DNA of 64,000 nt from Muricea muricata (Eukaryota; Cnidaria; Anthozoa; Malacalcyonacea; Plexauridae): assembly GCA_963855995.1 (NCBI GenBank), contig OY979717.1:38312680-38376679 (forward strand), in the 5' to 3' direction. The position numbers and the translations under genes are program-made. A model generated the notes under the pieces. That model saw nothing but the letters and a program-made list of their open reading frames with translations. It was not told where the DNA came from and made no database searches. Below are positions 30,380-59,454 of the stretch, in pieces. Position 1 is the first letter of the stretch, and each line of letters opens with the position of its first letter.

Positions 30380-31363
30380 AACACTAGTGTTTAGGGCATT
30401 GCTAATTCAACTCAACAAACCTACAACGCAGCGCAAATTTCTTGAGTTTTGTCACTGGAGCAAGTGTTTCAATGACAATGGTTCCCCTTTGCAGCGTCTG
30501 AATGGACTTTGATGTTATTCGCCACTCACCTGTCGCATATGGTTAAAGCGTCGTCTATCAAGGTTTATTTGGCTGGAGTGCGATCGCTCCATATAGAAAA
30601 CGGCTTCACGAATCCGCTGTCTAATTGTTTACGGCTCAAGCGAGTCTTACGGAGTGTTAAACGCTTGCAGGGTATCTCGACTCGACAACGGCTTCCAGTG
30701 ATGTTGGCAGTACTGTCAAGTATACGGGCAGTGTTAAATTTCGACTGCTACGACGATATTTTGTTTTGGGCTGCATGCTGCATGGGATTTTTTGGCTTCC
30801 TTCGATCTGGTGAGTTTACAACGCCAAGCAGCAAGTTTGACTCGCAAATCTATTTAGCTCTCTCCGATGTGAAAATCGACAAGCATATCAACCCAAAGTT
30901 AATCTTTCTGCATATCAAATGCTCGAAAATCGACCTCTTTCGGCAAGGGTCCACTATACGCCTCGGGATCTCTGGCAAAGACATCTGCGCAGTTAGGGCG
31001 CTGCTGGACTACCTTCAACTTTGTGGGCGTAATGCAGGACCCCTCTTTCGTCATTCAACTGGATCTCCACTGACTAGAGCAACACTAACCACTTGGCTCA
31101 AAAACGCAGTAGATCGCGCTGGTTTATCAGGAAACTTTTCAGGTCATAGTTTTCGCATTGGTGCAGCAACATCCGCTGCTGCCACAGGTATTCCAGATCA
31201 CTTAATCAAGACCTTAGGGGGAGATGGTCCAGCAATGCCTATCAATTGTACATACAAACACCTCACCACATTATCGAGGCCGTTCCTGCACGCATTGTTT
31301 GTAATAATAGTCATAATAATAACAATAAATAGTTTCCAAGATTTAATTGTCGTGTTCTTTTGA
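30380..31363 (+). pseudogene. DIRS-like tyrosine recombinase
   Basis: The main frame from 30509 shows the core-binding part (H-L-S-H-M-V-K-A-S-S-I) and the catalytic domain. The first Arg is in G-F-L-R-S-G-E-F. The His-x-x-Arg box is in S-G-H-S-F-R-I-G-A-A-T-S. After an extra G in the run near 31215 the next frame carries G-R-W-S-S-N-A-Y-Q-L-Y-I, the second Arg/Trp and the nucleophilic Tyr. The catalytic set R, H-R, W, Y is therefore present but split by a one-base slip. Tyrosine recombinases replace integrase in DIRS retroelements, integrating a circular intermediate. The N-terminal start before 30509 (T-T-Q-R-K-F-L-E-F-C) is in another frame. Confidence 0.8.
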
Positions 31364-47131: not shown

Positions 47132-49944
47132 TTTAGACCACATAATTTTTCTTTACTTGAGTAGGAATGTGTAGATGTGCAATAATATACCTGGTATAGA
47201 AAATCATAGCTTCAAAACATTGATTGTTGAAGACATTCAAGTCTTGCAACAACCAAGACACATTGAAATCGAGATGTGCTTGGTATCCTAGTTGCTTGGG
47301 ATCAGCATTTTTCTTTACATTGAGTTAATTACAATTGCTTGAAAACATTCAATTTTGAAACATGTACAATAAAGGGAGGTCAGTCAGCTATATGATGCTT
47401 ATGCCACCTGCATAGCATGGGTATACATCATATATTCATTGATCTTTTCTAATGTGAAGGATATTTCTTACTTTCTGGGATGAGGGGGAAGGGGGAACTG
47501 TTGTTGCTAATGCAATAACTCATCCAGTTACATTGTTATCTCACTCTGGCTGTTTACTCTGCTTTTTAACATGCAAATATTCAATCATGTTTATTCACCA
47601 AGAAGGGCAGCATCTTAGCTATTTATTGTATTATGGATCAGAAGTATAATTTTGACACTGCCGTGTGTCACTGATTGTCCATAACCCTTGTTGCAGGTTC
47701 TCCCATTAAGATTGAGTACCTCCCACTGTGTTCTAAATAGGCTGTGTACACTGGAGGGGAAACTGCGGATCAATGGTTTGAGCTTCCCAAAAGTGTGTAA
47801 TTACATATTTGTTTTCTCTGGGATACAGAAGGATGGTATTTTTCATCTCATTGGGAATATAGCCTGCAACCCTGTTCAAAATATATTGTACTTGTATCTT
47901 CACTTAGGTGTTCAGATGCAATTATATTAATGATGGACAACATGTGCACTGAAAGTTTACACTATGTACATCTAGTGATATAATTTGTCACTGATTTTGA
48001 AATAAATTTGTGATATTGTATGTCAGCTTTTGGTTTAGTGTAGTATTTATATGCTGTTAATAATCAAGGATTTCATGTTGGTTGTACTATGAATTAAAGA
48101 GGAGTTTAATTAAGGGTTGTACTATGAATTAATCCACAACTGTGTAGAGGACACTTTTCTGTTGAAACAGGTGGTGATTGTTATGAAAAGCAAAGCTGTG
48201 TTTGTTTACTTATGTTTTCTTTATACCTGTTTGAAAGACAAACATACCTATGTTTTGCCAGGTGTTCATCCAATTTCATTCTGTACTCATTACAAAGGCA
48301 AACTCACTAACAGGGTAAATTTCTTGAAACACTTAGACACCACTCTCATCTGTATGACTTAACTAGATTAACTAAGTTATTAATACATCTCTGCATACAT
48401 ATAGACACGATGCAATTTGTTTTATTTTATTCATATAATACTGGACTATTGGACTACAATGACAATAAATGCCCCCCGTATCAAGTACTCTGAATATAAC
48501 TGGTCAAGCTATAATGCATTCTATGAGTCAGATACATTGGCACCTGAAGAACAGTGCATGTACTTGCCAAGCTGTTTCCAAGCATATAGACGTTACATTT
48601 GCACTACGTGTACCTTGTGAAAACCTTATAGTACTGGTAACTTGTTCTTGTATTATGAATATCATACATGTTTGCAAATGACACCAATAAACACAAATTA
48701 ATATGGACAAGAAAAAATCATGATATAATATTCCCACTTATGAGCACAACTCACACAAATACAATGATATAAAATTAGCCAAAAGAGCCAGATTCTATGC
48801 AAAACTACATCATCTATCATGGCAATTATCAAACTATTTGTTTTTCGATGATTTTGCCAGGTGGCACGTTTTCAGTCCCACAAATGGGATAAAACTAAGC
48901 TCCTAATTGCTCTATATTCTTTACTCCTGGTCAGCGCCATCTTGGATTTTTATTATGCTCATGGGCGAAACTGCTAAACGCAATGACAGTCCAACTTGGC
49001 CGAATTCGCTGCATTTTATACCAATTGCTTTTATAAGCCAGAATGACAATTGCAAGACAATTTTTATCATGTACATAGGCTTGGTGAGGTCAAACATTGA
49101 GTGGGGGTCAATGCTAAATCAATACACAGTCACCAGGGTAAATTAGTTTTTCACACATGCAATTTCACATCATTTGCTCACCCCAGTTTCATTAGCGTAA
49201 ATACATTCAAGCTAACACCCACTTAGATTCTTATCATAATTCTGTAGTGAAACCTAAGAATAACACACATAAATTTCAATTTACAAAGAATTGGCAACTA
49301 CTGTAGCTAACAAAGTTCAATAAGAAATAGACCATACCCATTATGATGTTTAATTATAATTCAACACTATTAAACCACTGCTAAGTCCAGAGTACTTTGC
49401 TAAAATTCAGACTTAATTGCAATATACAGTAATCTTCGCAAAGTGTTCTGGTCTTAGCTGTTAAATAACGGTATGAAATTTCATAATTAATATTGTCTAT
49501 TAGTAATAGATAGAATGAGAAAACTCAGATAATACTATACCTTGCCACAGTATTCCATCTGCCCCATTGAACTGGGTGAATACTAAGAACAATTTTTATG
49601 ACACATCTGTTAATTTCTCAGTGAACACTGCAAATGATTAAAACACAATATAATATATATTAGTAGAATCATACTAGGATACTATTGCAAATGCTATAAT
49701 TTGATTGGCTACTCTACTCGCTATCTATTCATCATTAGAAAGAAGTAGCAAAACAATCATCTTTCTAGAGATTTTCTTTTTAAAAATTGTTAAAAAATCA
49801 TTTTTTTTTGTTGAATGCTTTATGTTTAATCTTTGATTCAACTAAAACAATTACATTACTCACTCTCAATTTCTATGAGATGATAGTTGATTCGGGCTTT
49901 GCCCTCATCAACTATCACCTCATAAAAATCTCAAGCTCATAATC
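47132..49944. other. No supported gene
   Basis: Short frames at 47688-47930, 48117-48362, 48417-48681 and 48907-49146 lack motifs. A hairpin (agatgatagttgat / atcaactatcacct) lies at 49877-49922, just outside the transposon end. Confidence 0.3.
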
Positions 49945-51440
49945 CATTTTTCCGATGGAAAATAAATGACGTCATGACTCATGGGAAGCAGATATCAGTT
50001 AAACCCAGATTGTCCAATGGATCCATCGGACAAGCGAGTTTACTATAGGACAAGTAATTTTCCGATGGACATTTAAAACTTCATTTTATAAATATGAATT
50101 GTATGCGCAGCTATAAAGTGAACCCGTATCTAAGCATATTTTATACAATTATATATGTGCTGATAAACCTGTATTCTATGTAAGTAACTTAATTGAATGT
50201 GTATTTATTATATCTGTTTGACTCGTTCTCTGAAAAACCCTTATCAACATCAAAGTAATACGAATTGTGAGAATTGTTATATTTGTATACACAACTTTAA
50301 AGTGAACTGTGTATGTAAGTGGCAATAAATCCATATTCAAAGTATGTTTCAGTACACCAATATGGCATATTTACATATTTGTAAATATAGCTGTCAAGCC
50401 AGGTCGGACAAGCGCGTTTGCTACAGGACAAATAATTATCTGATGCCCCATGGACATTTAATATGGACTTTAACATAGACTTCATATTTTAAGTATAAAT
50501 TGCGACAATTGTTATTTGTATGCATAGCCGGTACACCCGTATCAAAGCGCGCATATTTACATACATTTATACATGTGGCGATAAGCCCGTATTCTATAAG
50601 TATATTTATATACACAGCTATAAAGTGAATCCGTATCTGTATGAATTCATTTGTTTGCATTGGAAAGATATGTTTATATGTAGGACTTTAATTCACATTT
50701 TATTGATGTACGTGGCCATGAACCCGTATTGTATGTATGTTTAGAAACATATAGCTATATAAATATTACTTGCATGCATGGGTTTTGACATGTGCTTGCT
50801 CGTTCTCTGAAAAATGCCATACTGAACGTATATTTAAAAACTAGGTAAATAACATACGTTTTAGTTCAATGCTCAATCCTCCGTTCTTTTAAAATATCAA
50901 TACTTATTAATATTAGTTATAAGCACGTAAGGTATATGTTTAGGTTCACCCCGTTTTCTAAGAACCCTGAATCAAATTATTTTCTCACAAGTATTACTTG
51001 ACAATGCTCACTAACTGGGCCTGTGCATGTACGTGGCGAAAAAACCTTATTCCAAGCATGTTTATAGAAATATAGCTATATATAAATGTTACCTCTGTAT
51101 GTATTCATATCTGTTTGACTCGTTTTCTGAAAAACGCCGTTACCAAAAACAAAGTATAATTTAGTTATAAATTGATTAGGTTTAATAGTGTATTTGGTTC
51201 AATGGTGAATGTTTCCTTATTTGAAAATTTAACTTTATATTTATTAAAGTGCCTATGAAACAAAATTTTCAAACATGTAGTTCTTATTGATTTTAGTACC
51301 TTTTAAGTAGTTGAATACGATGCGCATTTTCACATTTGCGTATTTCAAAAGGAAAGTGCTTCTTTTCGGCTTTAAAGTTTGCATTTTTGCGACAGAAAGC
51401 TCCCAAGACCGCGCGCGACCTGTGACGTCACTGGTTAGAG
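49945..51440 (+). repeat. Left inverted repeat of the THAP-DDE transposon
   Basis: Matches the right arm in several blocks in reverse complement. It also contains internal direct copies of a subterminal motif near (a/g)taaacccgtatt(c) (e.g. 50109, 50163, 50582, 50718). The unit tgtgcatgtacgtggcgaaa recurs at about 51025 and, in the same orientation, near 56995. Confidence 0.75.
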
Positions 51441-51442
51441 TC
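51423..51442 (+). promoter_or_regulatory. CRE-containing promoter motif of the transposase gene
   Basis: TGACGTCACTGGTTAGAGTC lies 26 bases upstream of the transposase ATG at 51468. The same 20 bases occur in the other orientation upstream of the second gene (56666-56685). TGACGTCA is the palindromic CREB/ATF site. Function is inference. Confidence 0.6.
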
Positions 51443-51467
51443 AGACTATAATTAAGACTTTACAAAG

Positions 51468-54400
51468 ATGGCATCTTCAAGTGAGTTGACTGAGAGTTTG
51501 CGAAAGAAGCCAAAACAACTAGGAAAATATTGCATAGCAGGTGCCCCTGGAAAAGTCAGTTGCAAGAATAACTCAACATGTGTTGGAATATCAATGCATC
51601 TTTTCCCAAAGGCCAACGAAAAATTGAGAAATATATGGATAAAGTTCGTTCAAAGGATCGCGGCACGGGGTGGCATCCATCTCCATACCCTGCGCTTTGC
51701 TCAGCGCATTTTGAAACGAGCTGCTTCACCCAATGGCTTGATATTGGTTTGGAAGTGGATAAAAGTCAAGCTAGAACCAAAAGATGGCTTAACAGGGATG
51801 CTTACCATCGATACTGTGGTTCCAATGGATGCAGCTCACGAAATATCAATGCGAAAATGCAGACAGGTAATTTAATATACACTGTTTAATATATTCGCGT
51901 GCTTTATACCAGTGCATAATTTTAGTCAGCCAACATACTATATTGCGCTTAGGTCGTGTAGTCTACTCTAGTACTTTATAGCTGTTTTACAGTTATTGAT
52001 GAATTTTGTAGTACATTGTCTTGTTTAGATACTGAGAGAAGCAACAAAGACGACACGGAACAAAAGCCAAGGCGACGAAGGCACAGCAACTGGTGAGGCA
52101 AGCAATCTCATTTGCATACCAGCAAGCAAAATGCATTCGGTCAACGTTGAAGAGGAAGTTTCAATTCCAAAAGGCAATTCAAAAATGTTGTCTTTATATA
52201 AAGAACGTTTGCGTAAGAGCAAAGAGAGGAATTCTAAATTAAGAAAGAGATTGTTCGAAGAACGTGGCAAGAAGAGAAAACTGCTCAAGGTATTATTAGT
52301 CCATACGTATGCATGTATCTCATATTTTCTAAAATATCTGAATTATTGTACATTTTATGGTTAGATTTTGTAAAAAAAAAACAGTGAATAATTCGAGATA
52401 TTTTCGTTTTTTAGTTTTTTAATGCTTGCTCTTATATTTTCCAAGGTGCTTGATGAACAAGAACAAGAAAGAACCAAACCAAATAGTGACAATATGAGTC
52501 AAGATGAAATTTGTCAAGGGTACCTGCAAGGTTAGCAATGAAAATATTATTTAATCCACGAAATGTTTCACACAAAAATATGAAATGCAGAGATTTTGTT
52601 TTAAAAAATCTTATATCTGGCCAGATTTAGACACAGATGTTGATGATGATGATGACAGCATATGCCATGGTGGTGAACAGACCCTATTTGAAGGACAGGA
52701 TCCTGACTGGGAAATTCCAACTGATGATACAAGTGCTGATGATGCAGATACCATGGAAATGACACCCCATTATAAAAATTTTATAAGGTAGCTTGGAATG
52801 TTTTTTAAACAAAAATATTATTTAGGAGATACCATTAACCTACTCTCTGCTAAGCACTGTACAAAATATTATAGTGTCACTGAAGAAAGCTTTGACCTGA
52901 GCTTTTTGACACCCTTACTATAGCCTTATTCTCTTACAATTAATTTTTAATCTATATAGTGCATCTTCAAATGTCAAGTGTGAAAATGAACCAAAATTCA
53001 TCATGTTTCATTCCATGTTACTATCCCTATTCACAATCTTCTGCTTTACTTGCAAGAAAGAAAAACCAAAGGTTGACATGTACAAAAATGGAACGATGGT
53101 AACTGTGGTCCAGCACTGTATTACATGTGGAAATGAATCATTTAAATGGAGGAGCCAGCCCTATGTGTTTGGAATTTATCCAGCTGGAAATGTCTTACTT
53201 TCATTTGCCATACTCATGGCAGGTGCATCAGTAAGCAAGATTTTATTGGTGTGTAAACACATGGGACTTGCTGTTTATTCACCAAGAACATTTTTTTACC
53301 ATCAAAGCAAATTTTTATTTCCCATCATTTTCATTCACTGGGAGGCATATCAATCAAAACTCATTAAATCGATTCGAACTATGGCTGAGACTGTATGGTG
53401 TGGAGATGGTAGATTTGATTCTATGGGGCTTATACAATGTTCTGCACTACCGTTACGAAAATTGTTCACTTTGACTTGTTACAAGTAAGTGTGAAGTTTA
53501 ATCACTGTATTAAATTACTGTTTACCTTATCAGCTAAATTTCATATTGAGGAAAGAAGTAATCAAAGAGCCTTTTAACCCATTATTAACCCTCTCCTATA
53601 CGGTTGCTTTGCTGCTTACTAGGAATGCAATGGTTAGTTCAAAATCTATTCAATATTTTTACTAGTTGCTCAATATCTTCCTGTACTTTACATATTTTAG
53701 GCAAATCAGGCTGGAAGCAGTACGGCAATGGAAATGCAAGGGGCAAAGTCATGTTTTGACTTTCTGGTAACTGCTTGTGGATTGGCGATACCAGTTTTTA
53801 TATCTGATCGCCATCGTGGTGTTGCCAAATGGATACGGCAGTCTCACCCAACCATCGAGCATTTTTTTGACCAGTGGCACATTGCTAAAAGCATTGTCAA
53901 AAAAATGCTAGCTGCTAGCAAAACGAAAGGCTGCGAGATTCTGGGAGAATGGACAAAGGCGGCTCGTAATCACGTCTATTGGTGTTCAACATCTACAATA
54001 AAGGGTTTTGGGAGCATGATTGAGGCAAAGTGGAAATCTTTTATGCGGCATGTTGCCAACAAGCATGAAAGTCATGAGGACAAACTATTCCCAAAATGTG
54101 CCCATGAAGAACTTGAATATCAACGCAAGTGGGTTAAAATTGGTATGTTAATGTGTTGTGGTGCTTAATTTCTAATCCTAGTAATCTTTCTTGCTAGAGG
54201 GCAGTGGTAAGATGATATAACACATTATTTGTTTTGGGGACAGGTAGCTTTTATAGAAGCTGGTATTGATTGAAGGTGGTAGTTGTTCATTTTGTACAGT
54301 TGTTCATTTTGTTCCTTTTTTATTTATTTTTAAGTTTACATTTTATAATTATAGTTATTGTTGCTTTCTCATTGTTCATCACACTGTATGGTATTGAAAT

Positions 54401-55516
54401 TTACTTGTTTTGCTAAATAAAGAAAGACAAACAATATTATTGTTGTGTGGCAACAATATTGAAAAATATGCTTTTAGGAACAACAGCTTATGACAAACTT
54501 AAAGGCATAATGCTAAATGATGTAAAGAAACTCTCTTCAGATGCTCAAACAAGTACATTGGAAGGATTCCATTCGACCCTAAACCAGTGGCATCCAAAAA
54601 TGATTTGTTTTTCATGGCTTGGAACCCATTGCAGGTGATACCTTATTTCAAGTTCTAAAATTGTACTTGTGATAACTCAGTATATCATAGAAGTCAATAC
54701 ATGTGGTAGTAATGAATTTATCCCTTATACTTGTAAGAAAGTGATTAATTATTATCTTGAGACATATACTTGCCACCCTGCATTTCAATGAAAATGTGAG
54801 TCGTGCCGTTAAAAAAACAAAAAATGGAGAGGAGTACATCCATGTAACTTATCCCAAATTTAAGTTTGGAGAGGAAGTTGTGCGTAATGTGCCAATACCA
54901 CCAACATACAGTAAGTTACAAAGACAGGTGTATATAAAAAAACATTGTGTTAACCCCATAATATTTTGCTAAACATGGTGCAGTAATTAGAGGGGAAAGA
55001 CAGTGCTTTGTGCAGTGGTTGCTTCACCCCATCCCTCTTATTTTTATACAGTATATATTTCCTTTAAAATTTATACAATATTCTATGTACTAAATAGGCT
55101 ATGTGGAAGACTTGAAACAAGTGTTGTTAGCATCAAGCACAGAAAGTCTTGAGAAAATCAAAAAGAAATACCTACCAAAGGTTCCAAAACCATCGAATTC
55201 CCAATTTGAAAATAAACCATCTCGGGAGGAAGCTATCAGAAAGACAGCTGCTCGAAAACGAAAAGTAGCAGAACTTTTTCCAGAAGGTACTGTATCCTAT
55301 TTGCTAGCAATGTATATACAATGTATCAACTGAATTCTTAACTACAATTAAGATTTTTACTTAACACTTTTAGGGGATGCCCAAGGAAAGGAGATGGGAA
55401 AAAAAGCAAAGCCTAGTGAAAAACAATGCAGGTGCTGCAAGAAGTGCAAACAATCTATGAAAGGTCACCCCAGGTCCCACTGCCCCAACTACGATGCAGC
55501 ACCATCCAACGCATAA
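51468..55516 (+). CDS. THAP-domain DDE transposase, ten exons
   Basis: Exons are 51468-51866, 52029-52289, 52446-52530, 52625-52787, 52960-53484, 53701-54142, 54478-54634, 54762-54910, 55098-55286 and 55374-55516, all with GT/AG borders; phases agree wherever the frame is unbroken. Exon 1 is a THAP finger (K-Y-C-I-A-G, K-N-N-S, F-P-K, C-S-A-H-F-E), exon 2 a basic coiled coil, and exon 4 an acidic linker. Exon 5 has C-I-T-C-G, G-N-V-L-L-S-F-A-I-L and G-D-G-R-F-D (first Asp). Exon 6 has I-S-D-R-H-R-G-V-A-K-W (second Asp) and N-H-V-Y-W-C. Exon 7 has S-T-L-E-G-F-H-S (probable Glu). Exon 10 ends in a cysteine cluster (C-R-C-C-K-K-C). An aataaa lies after the stop. Two offsetting slips in exon 1 and a small deletion/slip after G-R-F-D in exon 5 probably inactivate it. 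Confidence 0.8.
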
Positions 55517-55729
55517 ATTATGCATGAAATTGAATAAAAGTTATGTTTCAAAATTGGGTATTGTAGTATTTTATAGTTTACTTAGTACTAGAGACTACAA
55601 TATTACACTTACCAATTGTTCCTTAGAATCCACCGGTAAGATACGATGAGCTTGGGTTAGACACAGCCTGGGATGACATGCAGTATTGCATAGATTGTTT
55701 GTATTTGTACAATGTAACATTTGTAAAGT

Positions 55730-56589
55730 TTAATTGTCAGGTGCTCGTTCTTGTCCAGAAGAATAACCCACTGTGCTGTCTGTTGGTAATATCTTTCTAA
55801 TGTGATTGTAGATACAGGCAGAGAGAGGTCTGGTGTTTTTCCAACCCATTTCACCAAATAACCACCTTGCCAGCCATCTGTATGCAACAGCTCGAAGAAA
55901 TCTATTACCAAAATGTAAACAGAAATAATCATGAGTACTTCCTTATACAAGTAAAGTACTCATAAGACAAATTTATAAAGTATTAACAAATATTCAAAAT
56001 GTATGTATTCAAATTCTCAGTACTTACTCATTTTCACTGTGACCATATTTCTGGTATCGTTTGCCGCTTTTGCTTTTTAACAAAGACCCAACTTGCAGCA
56101 TTACAGCCCTGTTTGTTAGTGAACCAAAGTCGTGATGGCTTAGAATACACGCAGCATTTAGTCCTTCAAAAGTAAATTTTCCTGTTGCTTCAAGTATTTC
56201 CTTACAGCAACGATATTCTCGGGAGCCAACAAGAAGTGAGTCTTCACAACCACCACACGTACACCTAAAAGCAACGCAACAAAAAGCAACTTCCACGTCG
56301 AAAAGACAGTTTTGTAATTGGACGCGAAGCTAAAAATTTACCACTGTTGAACAGGAATTTGTTTTTCATATCGTTGCTCCAATACAGCTCTCGTAATGCC
56401 ATCAATATCTGGTGCATCGTCACTTTCGTGGCTTTCATCTGATGAACTTCCCCTAGGTTCGTCTTGATATGGCAAAAAATGACCTTCAAAATGGTACTCA
56501 TCGCTGTCACTTGAACTACTCTTGTCACTGCTAACACTGTCAGTAGAATCCTGACCAGAACAATCGGCTTTCGAGACGAAATCAGACAT
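55730..56589 (-). CDS. P2X7-receptor C-terminal-like (ballast) domain protein, three exons
   Basis: Exons on the minus strand are 56589-56342, 56264-56028 and 55901-55730. Joined they are 657 bases with no stop before TAA, i.e. 218 residues. Residues 1-80 are acidic and Ser/Asp-rich (S-S-S-S-D-S-D-E-Y). From about residue 82: W-C-T-C-G-G-C-E-D, then Y-R-C-C-K-E-I, A-C-I-L-S-H-H-D-F, F-L-R-A-V-A-Y-R-W-L-A-R-W-L-F-G, L-S-A-C and I-R-K-I-L-P. This series of cysteines and the A-Y-R...W...G...C...I-R motif are those of the cytoplasmic zinc-binding ballast of vertebrate P2X7 and of many stand-alone invertebrate proteins. No membrane segment is present. It is converging on, and about 210 bases from, the transposase stop. 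Its role in the element is unknown. Confidence 0.8.
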
Positions 56590-56654
56590 TCCTCTTATTA
56601 TAAAGCCTACTTGCGATTGTTGTTTGCTATAAAATGCTAATTTCGCAGTGCTTG

Positions 56655-57775
56655 GAAGAAAACACGACTCTAACCAGTGACGTCACCACTTGGACTCAGG
56701 CTCCGGAACACTTTATTTGCAAATTGCCCATTTTTAAATGCAAAAATAGGTTACTTGCACTCAAAAACAGGAAATATAAACAACGCCATCGTGTTCAGCA
56801 CCCTAAAGAGCCTCAAAATTATACAAAAAAATGAAGTGCTAAATTTCGTTTCATAGGCACTTTAATGTTTATGTAAGCATATATCTATATGTTCACCTCG
56901 TTCTTTGAATAACCTATATCAAAGTACGCTCACAATTCAAAATAGCTATGACTTGCCAATGGCAACATACATTATAGTCAATTTGCCCTGGACCTGTGCA
57001 TGTACGTGGCGAAAACCTCCTTATTGCAAGCATGTTTATGGAAATATAGCTATATATAAATATTACATCTCAGATACGGATTCACTTTATAACTGTGTAT
57101 ATAAACATACTTATAGAATACGGGCTTATCGCCAAATGTATAAATGTAAATATGCTTTGATACAGGTTTACCGGCTATGCATACAAATAACAATTGTCGC
57201 AATTTATACTAAAAATATGAAGCCCATGTTAAAGTCCATATTAAATGTGCATGGGGCATCAGATAATTATTTGTCCTATAGCAAACACACTTGTCCGACC
57301 TGGCTTGACAGTTATATTTATAAAAATGTAAATATGCCATATTGCTGTAGTGAAACATACTTTGAATACGGATTTATCGCCATTTACATACACAGTTCAC
57401 TTTATAGTTGTGTATACAAATATAACAATTCTCACAATTCATATTACTTTGTTCTTGATAAGGGTTTTTCAGAGAACGAGCAGGTATAATACATACACAT
57501 TCAATTAAGTTACTTATATAGAATACGGGTTTATTGGCACATATATAATTGTATAAAATATGCTTAGATACGGGTTTACTTTATAGCTGCGCATACACGT
57601 AACAATTGTATTAATTCATATTTATAATATGAAGTTTTAAATGTCCATCGGAAAATTATTTGTCCTATAGTAAACTCTCTTGTCCGATGGATCCATCTGA
57701 CAATCTGAGTTTAACTAATATCTGCTTCTAGCTTGTGATGACGTCATTTTTTTCTCCATCGGATAATTTTTTGTC
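56655..57775 (-). repeat. Right inverted repeat of the THAP-DDE transposon
   Basis: Complement of the left arm. It includes agtgcc...catttcatagg-type sequence near 56845-56866 matching 51249-51270, five complements of the subterminal motif (gaatacgggtttat and variants at about 57073, 57117, 57364, 57521, 57566) and the outer ccgatggatccatctgacaa. Confidence 0.75.
56666..56685 (-). promoter_or_regulatory. CRE-containing promoter motif of the ballast-domain gene
   Basis: Reverse complement of TGACGTCACTGGTTAGAGTC, 77 bases upstream of the ATG at 56589. It mirrors 51423-51442 upstream of the transposase. Confidence 0.6.
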
Positions 57776-58260
57776 TGACGGAAAACATGCTTGTCCGATG
57801 GATCCATCTGACAATCTGACTTTCACGAGGTCTGGGCAATCACCAGGCAGGCCGCATGCGGATATCTCTAATTGAATTAAACCTAGCTTGTTATAACGTC
57901 ATTTTTTCTCCATCGGGTAATGTTTTGTCCGACGGAAAACACGCTTGTTTGATGGATCCATCAAACAATCTGACTTTCACGAGCTCAGGGCAATCACCAG
58001 GCACGCAACATGCGGACATCCCTAATTGAATTAAACCTAGCTTGTGATGACATCATTTTTTCTCCATCGGATAATTTTTTGTCCGACGGAAAACACACTT
58101 GTCCGATGGATCTATTGGATCCATCTGACAATCTGACTTTCATGAGGTTAGAGTAACCACCAGGCAGGCAACATGTGGACATCCCTAATTGAATTAAACT
58201 TAGCTTGTGATGACATCATTTTTTGTTTGATGGATCTATCGGACCATCTAAGGGACCGAA
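57725..58260. repeat. Tandem copies of the transposon end, ~150-165-bp unit
   Basis: The block agcttgtgatgacgtcattt ... ccatcggataattttttgtc ... ggatccatctgacaatctga ... caccaggcag ... attgaattaaacct recurs three to four times, starting near 57730, 57887, 58039 and 58202. It is the same sequence as the outermost part of the element arms. Confidence 0.8.
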
Positions 58261-59454
58261 AGTTTCTATTTTCTATGCCTAATACATACTTAGATACTTT
58301 CCGCAAAGTAAGCGTTTAGCATGTTTACATATATGTTACTAAGCTTACCGAATATTGTGTAGATTACATAGTTATAATATTTGCATTTATTACATAATGT
58401 ATAAGTATGTTTGTCACTTGACTGTGTATTTTAAAAAAAGAACTCCATCGGATGCATCGTAAAAAACTTGTCTGATGGATTTGTCCATCGGACTCAGATT
58501 GCCGATATTGGACATCAATCTGCAATGTTCTGGCAAACCAAACTAGCTTGTGAAGCTTGGCAGTTTGTTATAGTTTCAATACATGAGACCATATAATTGT
58601 ACTGTCACAGGTAACCGAGCTACCCTGTAATGGCATCACAAATTAGCTTGGCTACGAAATAAACAACCAAACAAAAAAAAGCTAGCTTTGTTTTCTGGGA
58701 CAATGCAACTACAATGGTCTCACATAAAGAAAACTATAACAAACTGGCAAGCACCAGAGGCTAGCTCAGTTTGCTGTGACAATGCAACTGTATATACATA
58801 TAATACACATATTAAAGCTATCAGTAGATCAAACTGCCAGGCATCATAAGCAAGCTTCTGATGTTTGCCAGTTCATTTCTTTATACACAAGACTAGTTAC
58901 ACTGTCATGGCAAACCATATGATGATGCCTGGCAGTATATAATTTTTACAGCTTTACATGAGACTACTGTAGTTTCATTGTTGCAGTAACTATACCAAGA
59001 TACTGTAGCTTGTAATGCTTGGCCAGTAATATAAGTTATACAACAAACTCAGGTTGCATAGCTAACCAACCTAAGTTCACTGCTTTTTGCTGACGCTAGG
59101 TAGTTTGCAATAGCTACAGTCTACTAAAAACATACTAAACGTCGATTTTTTTTACCCTGGGATACCTAATTGTTATTTATATGCAAAAAATTAAATTCAG
59201 GCACCACTGCAGGCACCAGTAGGACCCAAAATGAATTGCATAAGAAAATTTTTCCATACCAATTATATTAAGAAATCAATTTCCCATGTAGAGATAATAA
59301 TTGTCCTAACCGAGCAGCTTCGTACCCAAGCTTGTCTTATGCAAAGTAAAAGCGCACATATTAAGTAGTTTGATATTCAAGATATAACCGCACGAGGAAT
59401 TATGGGGAGGACATGATGAATGAGTGAGACGCCTGGCAGAATATGCTTATTTCG
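58261..59454. other. Non-coding, small foldbacks
   Basis: 58557-58612 (ggcagtttgttatagttt) pairs with 58695-58756, forming a foldback of about 200 bases. Related inverted pieces (gccaggcatcat / atgatgcctggc) lie at 58838-58940. A further ccatcggat-type fragment is at 58444-58495. No genes. Confidence 0.5.

Follow-up and report, generated by a model that had tools for sequence, protein, structure and literature searches.

The stretch of DNA considered here, positions 49945-57775 of a 64,000-nt window from Muricea muricata contig OY979717.1 (the window being the whole stretch that was analysed), holds what is very probably a single, decayed Kolobok DNA transposon belonging to the Kol0 lineage, with the ballast-domain gene KolX as its likely accessory gene. 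It is bracketed by two long inverted-repeat arms, whose outer parts lie at 49948-50639 on the left and 57071-57766 on the right. When the left arm is aligned to the reverse complement of the right arm, the two are 89% identical over 709 columns, so that about one base in 10 differs. Inward of these outer parts the similarity is broken into pieces, among them a 26-base-pair (bp) inverted match with a single mismatch (51243-51268 and 56841-56866), and it extends as far as an exact 21-bp inverted match (51422-51442 and 56666-56686). Between the arms lie two convergent genes, a transposase gene on the forward strand and KolX on the reverse strand. An earlier note on this DNA had placed a transposase and a convergent ballast gene inside one set of inverted repeats, and the arm alignment and gene coordinates bear this out. 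Immediately outside the left arm, at 49869-49929, there is a short self-complementary stretch (82% over 61 bases).

The transposase gene (51468-55513, forward strand) is made up of ten predicted coding blocks, at 51468-51866, 52029-52289, 52446-52532, 52624-52788, 52958-53484, 53701-54144, 54480-54635, 54763-54912, 55100-55288 and 55376-55513. Its product has 28 homologues (best E 7.8e-221) and carries THAP, DDE, DxWH and His/Cys motifs. DDE, THAP and H2CH are given as the usual Kolobok marks in the available part of PMC6004289, and the available part of PMC9587614 (Kojima & Bao 2022) adds a DxxH signature, a zinc finger, TTAA target sites and RR/YY ends. In alignment with seven homologues the catalytic core is kept (the GDGRFDSMG, DRH, DQWH and LEGFH blocks), as are both aspartates, the DxWH signature, the later His/Cys columns and the last glutamate. 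The DDD/E core with C/DxxH between the second D and the E, as known from Kol0, is therefore present, and a zinc finger between DxxH and the last E can be recognised from the invariant His/Cys columns, H600, H605, H608, C616 and H618 being the same in all eight rows. The N-terminal THAP domain is likewise found when the first 122 residues are read through two frame breaks (E 3.1e-10, passing the cut-off), and two of the homologues, P0015 and P0016, have a THAP match above the cut-off in their own right. The ten-exon THAP-DDE transposase proposed in the earlier note thus stands as regards its coding blocks, its motifs and its homologues, but not as an intact gene, its frame being broken in three places.

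KolX is encoded on the reverse strand by three exons. Exon 1 (56342-56589) codes for an N-terminal part with many Asp, Glu and Ser residues; exon 2 (56028-56264) carries the WCTCGGC, RCCKE and CI clusters, the Trp codon being split across exons 1 and 2; and exon 3 (55730-55901) runs from FLRAVAYRW to ACIYNHIRK and the stop. The exons are joined at GT-AG junctions into 218 codons without an internal stop, as the earlier note had described. The joint between exons 2 and 3 coincides with breaks in the database fragments P0010 (whose last residues are TENE), P0013 and P0014, and in the latter two unrelated residues precede FLRAVAYRW.

The ballast domain and its relation to P2X7

The product of KolX matches the Pfam model P2RX7_C (PF20478) with an E value of 6.3e-9 (36.5 bits, where the cut-off is 23.5), which agrees with the previously claimed likeness to the cysteine-rich domain of P2X7. 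Like the P2X7 ballast domain (PF20478; ZCD in PMC7016195), it has seven zinc-type cysteines in three clusters, here Cys 84, 86 and 89, Cys 102, 103 and 122, and Cys 191; the CC pair is out of register in the pairwise alignment with P2X7 and in register in the profile alignment. Two of the five residues of the guanine-nucleotide site (R546, H547, R574, R578 and K583 of P2X7) are kept, R546 as R165 and R578 as R197, whereas H547, R574 and K583 are Ala, Tyr and Thr in the pairwise alignment. These are also the two residues kept beyond deuterostomes according to the accessible part of PMC7016195 (Rump et al. 2020). The full five-residue site marks mammalian P2X7 rather than the domain family, and KolX, which lacks the channel domain and has an acidic N-terminal part instead, is not to be classed as a P2X7 receptor.

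The comparison of folds was made with the Montipora relative P0001, whose predicted model (built from 38 sequences, pLDDT 81.1) has the ballast fold; a model from 10 sequences (pLDDT 60.4) was set aside. A sequence search of the PDB at E 0.001 gave no match, and at E 10 it returned P2X7 chains with E values from 0.019 to 7.5 together with one Mediator subunit at E 0.3. We also built a ballast tree of 36 domains, comprising the window KolX, three P2X7 tails and 32 relatives picked from 38 aligned rows (P0051, P0055, P0065, P0066, P0072 and P0094 were omitted, as were other search matches). The P2X7 branch in this tree amounts to 4.9 changes per column, and the program warns of long branches. 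Because this branch is too long, the placement of P2X7 is uninformative, and the tree neither adds to nor contradicts the origin of the P2X7 tail from KolX.

Two groupings in the tree may be mentioned in their own right. The anchovy KolX (P0009) and the amphioxus KolX (P0050) pair with full support, the other sequences being cnidarian where a source is named, and this pairing could reflect Kol0 elements having passed horizontally between marine animals. Eight divergent ballast proteins (P0012, P0057, P0061, P0062, P0064, P0067, P0069 and P0070), all but one from named cnidarians, form a well-supported group and could be host genes rather than transposon genes.

The association of a transposase with a ballast protein has been described before. 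In the available part of PMC9587614, the Kol0 lineage is reported to encode a transposase and KolX; KolX is said to resemble residues 476-595 of human P2X7 and to have a ballast fold; stand-alone ballast proteins are stated to have gone previously unrecognised as parts of Kolobok elements; P2X7 is stated to have originated when a P2X4-like gene fused with KolX; and nanor, with zebrafish Nanor named, is regarded as a likely domesticated KolX. The ballast domain itself had been described across animals earlier, as the accessible part of PMC7016195 records, and the terms 'transpos' and 'mobile' are absent from the text of that paper. Besides PMC9587614, no paper on a link between P2X7 and Kolobok was found in titles and abstract openings among the matches listed, and the name KolX turned up in a single one of the papers searched. 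The origin of the P2X7 tail from KolX is hence a published conclusion of 2022, and the main idea of the earlier note, a transposon with a P2X7-type ballast accessory gene, is backed by sequence, fold and recurrent linkage without being new.

Linkage, decay and competing interpretations

As far as can be compared with published accounts, available in part (PMC9587614, PMC6004289), the window element is like Kol0 in having two genes, a transposase with THAP, DDE, DxxH and His/Cys features and a KolX with a ballast fold; the identity of the second gene as KolX is indicated by the PF20478 match and by linkage labels in three species. For nine named species the homologue listings contain a row for KolX as well as one for the transposase, namely Montipora capricornis, Montipora foliosa, Rhopilema esculentum, Actinostola, Acropora cervicornis, Paramuricea clavata, Oculina patagonica, Branchiostoma lanceolatum and Engraulis encrasicolus. 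In three of the nine, the two rows share a contig size and carry gene numbers that follow one another or lie close together (Oculina G023277/G023278, Branchiostoma Hypp6572/Hypp6571 and Engraulis LOC134437278/LOC134437285). From these gene labels and contig sizes we infer that KolX and the transposase are linked in the coral Oculina, the amphioxus Branchiostoma and the fish Engraulis. Pattern matches to KolX in viral contigs (23) and genome contigs (60), and to the transposase in viral contigs (58), were in no case confirmed by tblastn, little being expected in viruses and prokaryotes.

The element differs from Kol0 in that its transposase is broken and its outer right end merges into a tandem array; the TTAA duplication and RR/YY ends of that lineage were not found at the ends as they can now be read. 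Tandem Repeats Finder reports the array at 57728-58224, where a 154-bp unit is repeated 3.2 times, starting within the last bases of the right arm and continuing outward. It grows out of the right inverted repeat, and a related motif, TCCATCGGA, recurs at 58444 and 58484. Since the right arm merges into this array, the right boundary of the element is not sharp, and as the array units resemble the arm, the original right end may have lain further out than 57766.

Several observations weigh against the identification as a two-gene Kol0 element. Inspection of the outer repeat ends revealed neither a TTAA target-site duplication nor 5'-RR termini, the right end being obscured by the array; a symmetric TTAA pair does occur at 49999 and 57711, about 50 bases inside the arms, and RR does not follow it. 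The two in-frame halves of the THAP domain fall below the cut-off (E 0.027 and 0.056), and THAP is unlisted in a scan of the whole 842-residue transposase read-through. By sequence alone, the window KolX is linked to a P2X7 chain at E 0.021, and the KolX profile reaches 0.019 at best. The modelled protein is the Montipora relative and not the window's own KolX, and its Foldseek E values to P2X7 range from 0.0019 to 0.036, none being below 0.001, with TM-scores of 0.39-0.43 by model length. In a small BLAST comparison the P2X7 tails match some ballast proteins for which no transposon linkage is known slightly better than they match the window KolX; the best of these is P0059 (44.7 bits, as against 37.0 bits for the window KolX). 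Six of the nine species list KolX and the transposase on different contigs, although the listings contain 90% cluster representatives only, so that separate contigs there are not evidence of separated genes.

The copy has decayed. Compared with that of relatives, the transposase frame shifts twice at its start, close to 51650 and to 51803, and near 53425 the residues HSAK, present in all seven aligned relatives, are absent and the frame changes. With its frame broken at these three places, the copy encodes no intact transposase; it can no longer make a working enzyme and would depend on another copy for any movement. The unbroken frame of KolX beside this broken one might suggest that the host has adopted the ballast gene, which selection then preserves as the rest of the transposon falls apart. 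However, three breaks in about 2526 transposase coding bases lead one to expect 0.8 in the 657-base KolX frame, and the Poisson chance of finding none is about 0.46, which is close to even without selection; we therefore consider host takeover very unlikely. Nor do we regard as established the earlier suggestion that the open frame reflects selection or recent activity, because, besides this near-even chance, the arms have diverged by about 10% and the transposase is broken.

It could also be that this particular element happened to pick up a host ballast-domain gene of the nanor type. Stand-alone ballast genes do exist across animals (PMC7016195, as far as available), and by published descriptions, accessible in part, nanor and nanor-like proteins (PTHR36981) have a stand-alone ballast domain as KolX does, while being host genes, unlike the window KolX. 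The recurrence of KolX and transposase as neighbours in the coral, amphioxus and fish named above largely refutes such a capture, and the two-gene Kol0 plan is already in print in PMC9587614, on the part of it available, so that we regard this as highly improbable. The idea that the element belongs to another THAP-DDE group, such as the P element or a Mutator-like (MULE) family, would be in line with the nearest Pfam catalytic model, Mutator (E 0.00024 for one window block, which fails the cut-off, and 2.5e-8 for the homologue P0024), and with the TTAA duplication not found at the repeat ends. Against it stand the conserved His/Cys columns in the transposase alignment and the description of KolX as the accessory protein of Kol0 in the accessible part of PMC9587614, and it appears barely credible beside the assignment to Kolobok Kol0.

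Elsewhere in the window, an open frame at 30476-31360 (forward strand) resembles a tyrosine recombinase by eye, and several other long frames are transposon-like in appearance.

A shared upstream box and the possible role of KolX

The exact 21-bp match at the inner limit of the arms, GTGACGTCACTGGTTAGAGTC, lies upstream of both genes. On the forward strand it occupies 51422-51442, its last base (51442) preceding the transposase ATG at 51468; on the reverse strand its exact copy occupies 56666-56686, ending at 56666 before the KolX ATG at 56589. It contains TGACGTCA. The window has five copies of this sequence, as against 0.6 expected from a first-order model (averaged over 40 simulations, of which none gave more than 3), and four of the five fall within the element. 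The two further copies in the element lie in the outer arms, at 49967 and 57739. The palindrome in the box is one that we take to be a CREB/ATF (cAMP-response-type) site. That the same exact box precedes both genes suggests that both would answer to the same factor; alternatively, the box may be shared only by descent, the arms being inverted repeats.

From family knowledge, the transposase would bind the element ends through its THAP domain, and its DDE core would cut and join the DNA in a cut-and-paste reaction. KolX is small, and most likely it would act as an accessory factor beside the transposase, a role that fits its recurrent linkage, its zinc fold and its acidic tail. It might, for example, join the transposase in the end complex or regulate the genes of the element, and we think these two about equally probable. 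No function of KolX in transposition is stated in the available parts of the cited literature. One could go further and propose, as a speculation that we think unlikely to be right, that the inward ends of Kol0 repeats carry GTGACGTCACTGGTTAGAGTC as a promoter box, that a host factor of the CREB/ATF type co-activates transposase and KolX, that KolX is the co-expressed other half of the transposition machinery, and that P2X7 inherited a transposase-partner domain. The identical box upstream of both genes makes such co-regulation testable. Through the linkage labels in three further genomes and the fold comparison, the element lends independent support to the published idea that the cytoplasmic tail of a human inflammation receptor came from an accessory gene of a transposon.
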